The notes under the pieces were generated by a model, which was not told where the DNA came from, did no database searches, and saw only the letters and a program-made list of their open reading frames with translations. Made by a program: the position numbers and the translations under genes. Below are positions 2,554 through 3,512 of a stretch of DNA of 64,000 nt, one piece after another. Position 1 is the first letter of the stretch. Each line of letters begins with the position of its first letter. Origin of the DNA: Mesobacillus persicus (GTDB taxonomy: Bacteria > Bacillota > Bacilli > Bacillales > Cytobacillaceae); the NCBI RefSeq assembly GCF_900109925.1, contig NZ_FOBW01000004.1, forward strand, positions 1 to 64,000. Reading direction: 5' to 3'.

Positions 2554-2570
2554 CTTTTCTAGCAAAAGTA

Positions 2571-2600
2571 ACCCCCTAGGATTTCTCCTAGGGGATTTTG
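2571..2600 (-). terminator. Terminator of the redoxin lipoprotein gene
   Basis: CCCCTAGG (2573-2580) and CCTAGGGG (2587-2594) form an 8-bp stem with a 6-base loop just after the minus-strand stop codon. It is also placed to stop + strand transcription from the tRNA. Confidence 0.75.
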
Positions 2601-2603
2601 CAT

Positions 2604-3113
2604 TTATTTTAGTTTTTCAAGTTCTTCTTTAATTTCCTCCACCGTTTTATCGGCTTGTTCTCCCCAGAAATCATTAATTGTATTGAAAACAAGGGCACCG
2701 TTGCCATCAATCAAGGCATAACCCCTATAAGCTGTATCCTCATTTTTCATCTCCATATGTTCAATAAGTTCTAAGTTCTCATCAGAAACAAATGGTAAGC
2801 TTTCGCCGAAATACTCTTCAAGCTGAGTATAGAGTTCTAGCTGATGTTCAGGTTTATCCTTACTTATAATATACTTTTTAGCATCAATTCCATCTAATTG
2901 ATCTAAGTTTGAATGCAACTCAACTAGTTGCTGTTGGCAGATACCTCAAGTATAAGAAGTGATAAAAAAGAAAACAACCGGCTCACCGGTAGGAAACTCG
3001 ACCTCTTCGTTATTCTGATCCACCAAAGTAATCGGCTTTTCTAATCCGGTCTGCCCACATGCGGCAAGGAAAAGAATAGAAATTAAAAATGGGATAAGGA
3101 ATTTATACTTCAT
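2604..3113 (-). CDS. Redoxin-like lipoprotein with in-frame UGA (probable selenocysteine, U-G-I-C)
   Basis: Read from ATG at 3113, which has an AAAAGGGG ribosome site, the frame encodes a lipoprotein signal (lipobox LAAC, Cys19) and continues to a TGA at codon 56 (2948-2946). It then stays open for 113 more codons to a proper stop followed by a terminator, giving 169 residues. The TGA falls exactly at the first position of a thioredoxin-type CxxC: residues 48-66 read FFFITSYT-U-GICQQQLVEL, resembling AhpC/TSA-type FYRGSWCPYCRxQLAEL motifs. A hairpin fitting a bacterial SECIS follows 14 bases after the TGA. The downstream part (starting at TTG 2918) has no ribosome site of its own. Likely role: an extracytoplasmic thiol/peroxide redox protein. 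The alternatives are a nonsense mutation or sequencing error at the catalytic Cys. No sel genes are in the window. Confidence 0.72.
2915..2948 (-). promoter_or_regulatory. Candidate bacterial SECIS element
   Basis: On the minus strand the TGA (2948-2946) is followed after 14 bases by GCAACTAGTTGAGTTGC (2931-2915): a perfect 6-bp stem GCAACT/AGTTGC with a 5-base apical loop AGTTG. The loop starts 20 bases from the UGA and carries G at its second position, matching the known bacterial SECIS rules (loop 16-37 bases away, a G within the first two loop bases). The element is inside the coding region, as in other bacteria. Confidence 0.6.
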
Positions 3114-3261
3114 ACGGACCCCTTTTCTACGCTAAAGTTTTTTGAATCTTTTCTTGTATTAGTGTATTATTACAAGAAAATAGCGTCAAGTAAATCGTTT
3201 CACCTGAAAAACACTCCGATACTAATTTAGCCAGAGATCGTGATATCCTGAATTTCTACAA

Positions 3262-3311: not shown

Positions 3312-3512
3312 TTAGTTTTTGCGAACGTTAGCAGCTTGTGGTCCACGAGCTCCTTGCTCAACGTCGAAAGTTACATCTTGGCCTTCTTCAAGAGTCTTGA
3401 AGCCTTCGCCTTGGATAGCTGAGAAATGAACGAATACGTCATCTCCACCTTCGCGCTCGATGAATCCGAAACCTTTTTCTGCATTAAACCATTTTACTTT
3501 ACCGTTTTCCAT
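3312..3512 (-). CDS. cspC: Cold shock protein (CspC-like)
   Basis: The 66-residue single-domain OB-fold protein has both RNA-binding motifs, KGFGFIE (RNP1) and VFVHFSAI (RNP2), and the length of the family. The pattern [18 protein letters not shown] and [15 protein letters not shown] is closest to B. subtilis CspC among its three paralogues, so the symbol is a best guess. It acts as an RNA chaperone in the cytoplasm. GGAGG precedes the ATG. The promoter lies about 120 bases upstream, giving the long leader typical of csp genes. Confidence 0.93.

Follow-up and report, generated by a model that had tools for sequence, protein, structure and literature searches.

The gene at positions 2604-3113 (minus strand) of the window, i.e., the whole 64,000-nucleotide stretch of Mesobacillus persicus DNA analysed here, very probably encodes a selenoprotein: a redoxin lipoprotein whose codon 56, a TGA, would be decoded as selenocysteine (Sec, U). 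Such a reading had been put forward in an earlier note made from the letters of the window alone, and it is now strongly supported by the sel genes of the genome, the conservation of the TGA, the hairpin that follows it and the selection acting on the part of the gene behind it. From these observations we infer that Sec is inserted at the UGA.

The redoxin lipoprotein gene and its signals

When the minus strand is translated with TGA left open, a frame of 169 codons is obtained that carries a single in-frame TGA, at codon 56, and ends at a final stop. This confirms the earlier description of a lipoprotein gene in which TGA codon 56 is the only in-frame stop. The features of the gene and its surroundings are the following:

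2604..3113, minus strand, complete gene for the putatively Sec-containing redoxin lipoprotein, 169 codons plus stop (2604-2606), from the translation with TGA left open
3119..3126, minus strand, ribosome-site-like sequence AAAAGGGG, 5 nt before the ATG, found by eye
3057..3068, minus strand, lipobox L-A-A-C, with Cys19 as the presumed lipidated N terminus, from the sequence
2946..2948, minus strand, TGA codon 56, the presumed Sec (U of U-G-I-C), TGA in 117/117 family homologues
2937..2939, minus strand, Cys59, second residue of the UxxC redox motif, invariant in an alignment of 27 sequences (A1)
2915..2931, minus strand, bSECIS-type hairpin with a 6-bp stem GCAACU/AGUUGC and loop AGUUG, nt 18-34 counted from the T of the TGA
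2724..2726, minus strand, Arg130, on the conserved Arg of AhpC/Prx, invariant in A1 (27/27)
2570..2597, minus strand, terminator-like stem-loop downstream of the gene, from a consensus scan

With table 11 the gene is split into a frame of 55 amino acids (2946-3113) and one of 104 amino acids. The first start codon of the latter is TTG; the earlier note had described the C-terminal part as lacking an independent start site. This part reaches a proper stop, as had been noted, and stem-loops resembling terminators are found just downstream on both strands at 2570-2597, by consensus scan only. The lipobox was likewise correctly recognized, the lipoprotein signal of the window protein reading LAAC-GQ. 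The ribosome site had been called good; by eye, AAAAGGGG is a plausible site and is not outstanding.

Conservation of the TGA codon

Comparison with homologues shows that the TGA is conserved and behaves as a sense codon. The 193 genomes of the GTDB family were searched at E <= 1e-10 with a query in which Cys was written in place of the TGA, so that Cys forms could be found as well. The search yielded 117 matches in 102 of the genomes, and in all 117 copies, every one of which was inspected, TGA occupies the same codon of the UxxC motif; the count includes a split copy (L097) and a short one (L136), and one match (in G055) contains an extra TAA beside the TGA. It is therefore unlikely, as the earlier note had argued, that a chance nonsense mutation landed on this codon. 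The copies fall into two clades. Clade 1 (74 of 117) groups with the window gene and has the motif x-Y-T/K/N-U-G/T/S-x-C, while clade 2 (43 of 117) has FTGxx-U-D-Y/F-C and includes a second redoxin lipoprotein gene of the same genome (L052:1477-1977, corresponding to C38:19765-20259 on the plus strand of the genome). This second copy reads U-D-Y-C, has a hairpin of the same kind and matches AhpC-TSA with 56.7 bits.

The search was extended to an order sample of 397 genomes (E <= 1e-12, at most nine candidates scored per genome). Matches were present in 97 genomes, with at least one TGA match in 77 and none with TGA in 20. In 19 of these 20 the matches had E values of 2.2e-15 or weaker, a range that the weakest TGA matches overlap, reaching down to 6.7e-14. 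Among eight non-TGA matches inspected, seven were WCPVC redoxins and one an AhpC. The twentieth genome, G331, has only a C-terminal remnant (L148). Other families of the order contain a third TGA clade, of which nine copies (L149-L157) were inspected, with the motif FTGxx-U-x-x-C..QLVEL. Eight of the order-sample TGA matches carry TAA or TAG besides; in the three inspected (G053, L155, L156) these lie where the match ends. For an alignment of 128 rows, the 117 family copies were supplemented with eleven from other families within the order. Note that these eleven were chosen for having TGA and thus provide no further test of its conservation.

No Cys orthologue was found in the searches of the 193 family genomes and the 397 order-sample genomes. 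Among more distant homologues of the same order, all six WCPVC redoxins that were aligned have their first Cys opposite U56, and one AhpC has Thr there. The earlier statement that the TGA stands at the first Cys position of the CxxC of redoxins, and its proposal to look for Cys in homologues, are both borne out by these six sequences, all of them distant.

Two copies in selA-positive genomes look decayed: L148 in G331, of which only the C-terminal part is left, and L097 in G063, which is divided between two frames near the TGA. Another observation concerns the Thr codon directly before the TGA, which is ACC in 65 of the 67 clade-1 copies with Thr at this place, while nearby Thr codons vary. 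The window gene is one of the two exceptions, with ACT at 2949-2951. Such a bias towards ACC may reflect an influence of codon context on how the UGA is decoded.

The sequence behind the TGA evolves slowly at the protein level. Downstream of the hairpin, pairwise dN/dS has a median of 0.13 for 269 pairs of clade 1 and 0.07 for 66 pairs of clade 2, computed over pairs whose dS lies between 0.1 and 1.2. Most of the 15 pairs within the genus of the window are saturated, and the two ratios that could be obtained are 0.14 and 0.06. These low values indicate that the downstream part evolves as a translated, functional protein.

The hairpin after the TGA

Alignment of the copies shows that a conserved hairpin follows the TGA at the spacing of the bSECIS model. 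Over 100 distinct sequences, 99.2% of the cells are paired and 48 cells are changed on both sides, while pairing falls to 10-35% when the partner is slid by one to three columns. Pair 21-31 is GC in 54, AU in 39 and GU in seven of these sequences, without a single mismatch; pair 18-34 is GC in 86, UA in seven, AU in one, CG in one and unpaired in five. Since pair 21-31 joins the third base of a Gln codon to the first base of a Leu codon, its changes are silent. Parsimony on trees built without the hairpin region gives 15 changes at this pair, of which 11 affect both bases.

Of five shuffle controls, two were not clearly exceeded: 237 of 500 shuffles reached the observed value for pairs altered on both sides, and 26 of 500 did so for further pair types. 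These shuffles take no account of relatedness. Against mononucleotide shuffles, a weak control, the 17-nt hairpin has a median z of -3.5. Stem codons show less synonymous variation (Mann-Whitney p 0.0045 and 0.0015), and in clade 2 Leu+7 is CTG and Val+8 is GTC, each in 43/43 copies. Equally constrained codons also occur outside the stem, at -1 in clade 1 and at -25, +1 and +4 in clade 2. Within the stem region, one or two codons vary freely.

All six pairs are formed in 122 of the 128 copies and five pairs in the rest. In the third clade, pair 18-34 is UA in seven copies and CG in one, and L157 has a C-C mismatch. According to PMC13188914, the bSECIS model calls for a loop of 3-9 nt, a stem of 4-16 bp, a G at loop position 1 or 2, a distance of 16-37 nt between UGA and loop and an MFE <= -7.5. 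All of this holds for 127 of the 128 copies, with energies computed on 54 nt from the TGA onward; L156 deviates in energy alone (-7.4). The SECIS check proposed in the earlier note has thus turned out in favour of its reading, with a conserved hairpin and compensatory changes. When a model of the TGA and hairpin was searched in the window's own genome, only the two redoxin genes were matched (next match E 0.39). The model thus missed the genes for SelD and formate dehydrogenase alpha (FdhA), whose hairpins differ. The loop of the FdhA hairpin (L170), GGUCU, lies at a similar place and is close to the redoxin loops GGUCG and GGUUC; the SelD hairpin is different.

Selenocysteine machinery, distribution and alternatives to selenocysteine

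The genome (4.64 Mb, 40 contigs) has the complete set of components that the earlier note had suggested looking for, namely selA (576 bits), selD (395 bits, itself with an in-frame TGA), SelB (655 amino acids, 367 bits, cut-off 242) and a tRNA-Sec with UCA anticodon (63.5 bits, gathering score 47), which was also found by ARAGORN. SelB would bind the hairpin and deliver Sec-tRNA(Sec) to the UGA. At least one of four matches to formate dehydrogenase alpha contains TGA; this gene is located at C24:54196-56217 of the genome (L170). The Sec clients of the organism would then be FdhA, SelD and the two redoxins, and there may be others besides. About 2.3 kb upstream of the tRNA-Sec gene lies a gene for a DsbD_TM-type (CcdA-like) membrane protein (L016:7700-8407, 48.6 bits), a closeness that may be due to chance.

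selA was detected in 172 of the 193 family genomes and in 181 of the 397 order-sample genomes, which contradicts the earlier remark that selenoproteins are uncommon in Bacillaceae. In the family, all 102 genomes with the redoxin gene are selA-positive and none of the 21 selA-less genomes has it (Fisher 3.5e-8); G192, counted among the latter, was assigned by elimination and is without a redoxin match. In the order sample the corresponding numbers are 77/77 genomes with the TGA gene and 0/216 (Fisher 7.4e-32). Both p-values ignore shared ancestry. At the limits of the searches, 70 of the 172 selA-positive family genomes have no redoxin match and 104 of the 181 selA-positive order-sample genomes no TGA copy, and the redoxin is therefore not required wherever Sec is used. 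In a phylum sample of 398 genomes, order members included, three genomes matched at E <= 1e-11. All three belong to the order, one match being without TGA, and no TGA copy was found outside the order in this sample. A mobile origin was rejected, as tblastn at E <= 1e-5 gave no match in 72,556 plasmid or 50,697 phage records.

Comparison of the flanks of the 117 family loci revealed no neighbour cluster in more than 19 of them, and no partner is indicated. In the window, a cold-shock-type gene (by eye) is located upstream of the redoxin gene at 3312-3512, and a tRNA-Ala (GGC) lies downstream on the opposite strand at 2447-2519. The cluster with a cold-shock-type neighbour recurs in seven of the 117 loci, all of clade 1, and a gene for a cytochrome-c-type lipoprotein (by eye) is found upstream in 12 clade-1 loci.

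In principle, a frame interrupted by TGA could also be a pseudogene, i.e., a redoxin gene of the Cys type hit by a nonsense mutation or a sequencing error. The splitting of the frame under table 11 fits this explanation, and a few relatives are truly degraded (L148, L097). On the other hand, the same TGA is present in 117/117 family copies from 102 genomes, purifying selection acts downstream of it and the gene is found only alongside selA. Pseudogene and sequencing error were rejected on account of the identical TGA in every family copy, and we consider the chance that they apply negligible. It is also conceivable that the UGA is decoded as an amino acid other than Sec (Trp or Cys), or that it is a regulated stop giving a short lipopeptide; indeed, the first 55 residues alone amount to a lipoprotein signal with a short tail. 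Both variants are at odds with the exact co-occurrence with selA and with a hairpin of the bSECIS type that shows compensatory changes. For decoding as another residue it must be added that the seven aligned relatives without TGA have Cys (six) or Thr (one) at this position and not Trp, and a different genetic code was rejected because tRNA-Sec, SelB and the hairpin are present. This second explanation is therefore very improbable, too, and decoding of the UGA as Sec is by far the preferred reading.

Redoxin type, known relatives and proposed role

Domain and motif comparisons assign the predicted product to the AhpC/TSA-type redoxins; it has a UxxC centre and carries a lipoprotein signal. With C substituted for U, Pfam AhpC-TSA (PF00578) matches residues 37-141 (4.5e-12, 46.4 bits, cut-off 26), and this match consequently crosses the TGA; PF08534 matches as well (33 bits, cut-off 26.6). 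A profile search of the PDB returned 21 sequences, with AhpC, Bcp and Prx chains leading (best 2.4e-9). In three PDB alignments U56 coincides with the Ser/Thr of TxxC in Prx, Cys59 with the peroxidatic Cys and Arg130 with an Arg, and one aligned AhpC gives the same picture, with U56 on Thr. The Arg aligned with Arg130 has a catalytic role in Prx. The redoxin does not have the classical Sec-peroxiredoxin motif TxxU, with Sec in the peroxidatic place. Together, the PDB and WCPVC alignments identify the protein as a UxxC redoxin of the AhpC/TSA type.

Selenoproteins of this kind are already known. PMC13188914 and PMC9312934 list Prx-like thiol:disulfide oxidoreductases of PF00578 with UxxC or UxxU, and also a UxxC redoxin family selenoprotein of PF08534. 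The former, with WP_010940744.1 as reference, share with the window redoxin the Pfam domain, UxxC and the replacement of the first CxxC Cys by Sec. They are likened to it by domain and motif, and the window subfamily differs in having a lipoprotein signal, in being found in one order only and in scoring below every NCBIfam cut-off. The PF08534 selenoprotein is likened by domain match and UxxC alone. Sec-peroxiredoxin (TxxU) has in common with the window redoxin the AhpC/TSA fold, as judged by sequence, and the place of the Arg, whereas the Sec of the window redoxin lies three residues earlier, on the Thr, and a Cys occupies the peroxidatic position. ResA, TlpA and StoA of Bacillus are membrane-anchored thiol-disulfide proteins on the outer face of the membrane with a CxxC-type centre. 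Their topology and redox role would be common to the window redoxin, which differs by Sec for the first Cys, the Prx-type Arg and the lipid anchor; the ResA model matches the second redoxin copy of the genome weakly (17.6 bits, cut-off 170). Neither copy reaches the cut-off of any NCBIfam model, and the subfamily is not described among the literature matches listed, as judged by titles and abstract openings, supplements and most subscription papers being outside this search. Three selenoproteins of three families were counted for Bacillales in the accessible text of PMC1794560, and the subfamily may have been sighted earlier among them. Of the earlier phrase 'new selenoprotein', then, the subfamily without an NCBIfam model stands, while the class (PF00578, UxxC) is not new. 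Judged by comparison, the window redoxin appears to represent a genuine, unmodelled subfamily of Bacillales selenoproteins.

Gene finders that read TGA as a stop break the gene into a lipopeptide of 55 residues and a second piece lacking a good start, and owing to this splitting the copies, present in 102/193 family genomes, may be missing or truncated in annotation. We take the genera carrying the redoxin to be aerobic or facultative, and a conserved exported Sec redoxin in such genera would be a testable exception to the rarity of selenoproteins in aerobes. Aerobic bacteria rarely retain selenoproteins according to the 2026 review PMC13188914. The absence of Cys orthologues from the searches performed here raises the question of what Sec does that Cys cannot.

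With respect to function, the role of a thiol:disulfide oxidoreductase is favoured over that of a classical peroxidase because Sec would stand in the first Cys place of CxxC and not in the peroxidatic place of TxxC. The product would be exported, lipidated on Cys19 and exposed at the outer face of the membrane. Its Sec56 and Cys59 would cycle between selenol/thiol and selenenylsulfide, the redoxin would reduce an extracytoplasmic disulfide or peroxide, and its recharging would take place across the membrane, possibly through a CcdA-type protein. Alternatively, the selenoprotein may chiefly be a peroxidase that has kept the Prx-type site, with Cys59 as peroxidatic residue and Arg130, and in which Sec on the Thr place is resolving or co-catalytic. 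Such a function agrees with the placing of Cys59, U56 and Arg130 in the three PDB alignments and the AhpC, with the invariance of Arg130 in 27 sequences and with the lead of AhpC, Bcp and Prx chains among the 21 PDB matches. It is harder to reconcile with UxxC, which is a thiol:disulfide motif, with lipid-anchored export, which fits a role like that of TlpA/ResA, and with Sec-Prx having TxxU in the review table of PMC13188914, and we regard it as possible and rather unlikely. Equally tentative is a wider proposal combining features of both functions: a Bacillales-wide, obligately Sec-dependent subfamily of redoxin lipoproteins comprising three or more clades. The active site would be of the peroxiredoxin type, with the peroxidatic Cys and the Arg retained and the catalytic Thr exchanged for Sec. 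Its members would be surface-exposed Sec-Cys hybrids of peroxidase and disulfide reductase in bacteria usually regarded as aerobic, and as there would be no living Cys orthologue, selection for the subfamily would help to keep the Sec machinery.

Anchoring at the outer face of the membrane and surface exposure of the presumed oxidoreductase are suggested by the lipobox as their sole basis. Within the stretch examined, a Cys lipobox is present in 67 of 74 clade-1 and 42 of 43 clade-2 copies. Of the clade-1 copies without it, six (e.g., L087, L093-L095) show LSAFG at this place and one is truncated. Those LSAFG copies whose motif was inspected also have TYK-U-T-L-C; the LSAFG proteins are perhaps secreted, or anchored by an uncleaved signal.
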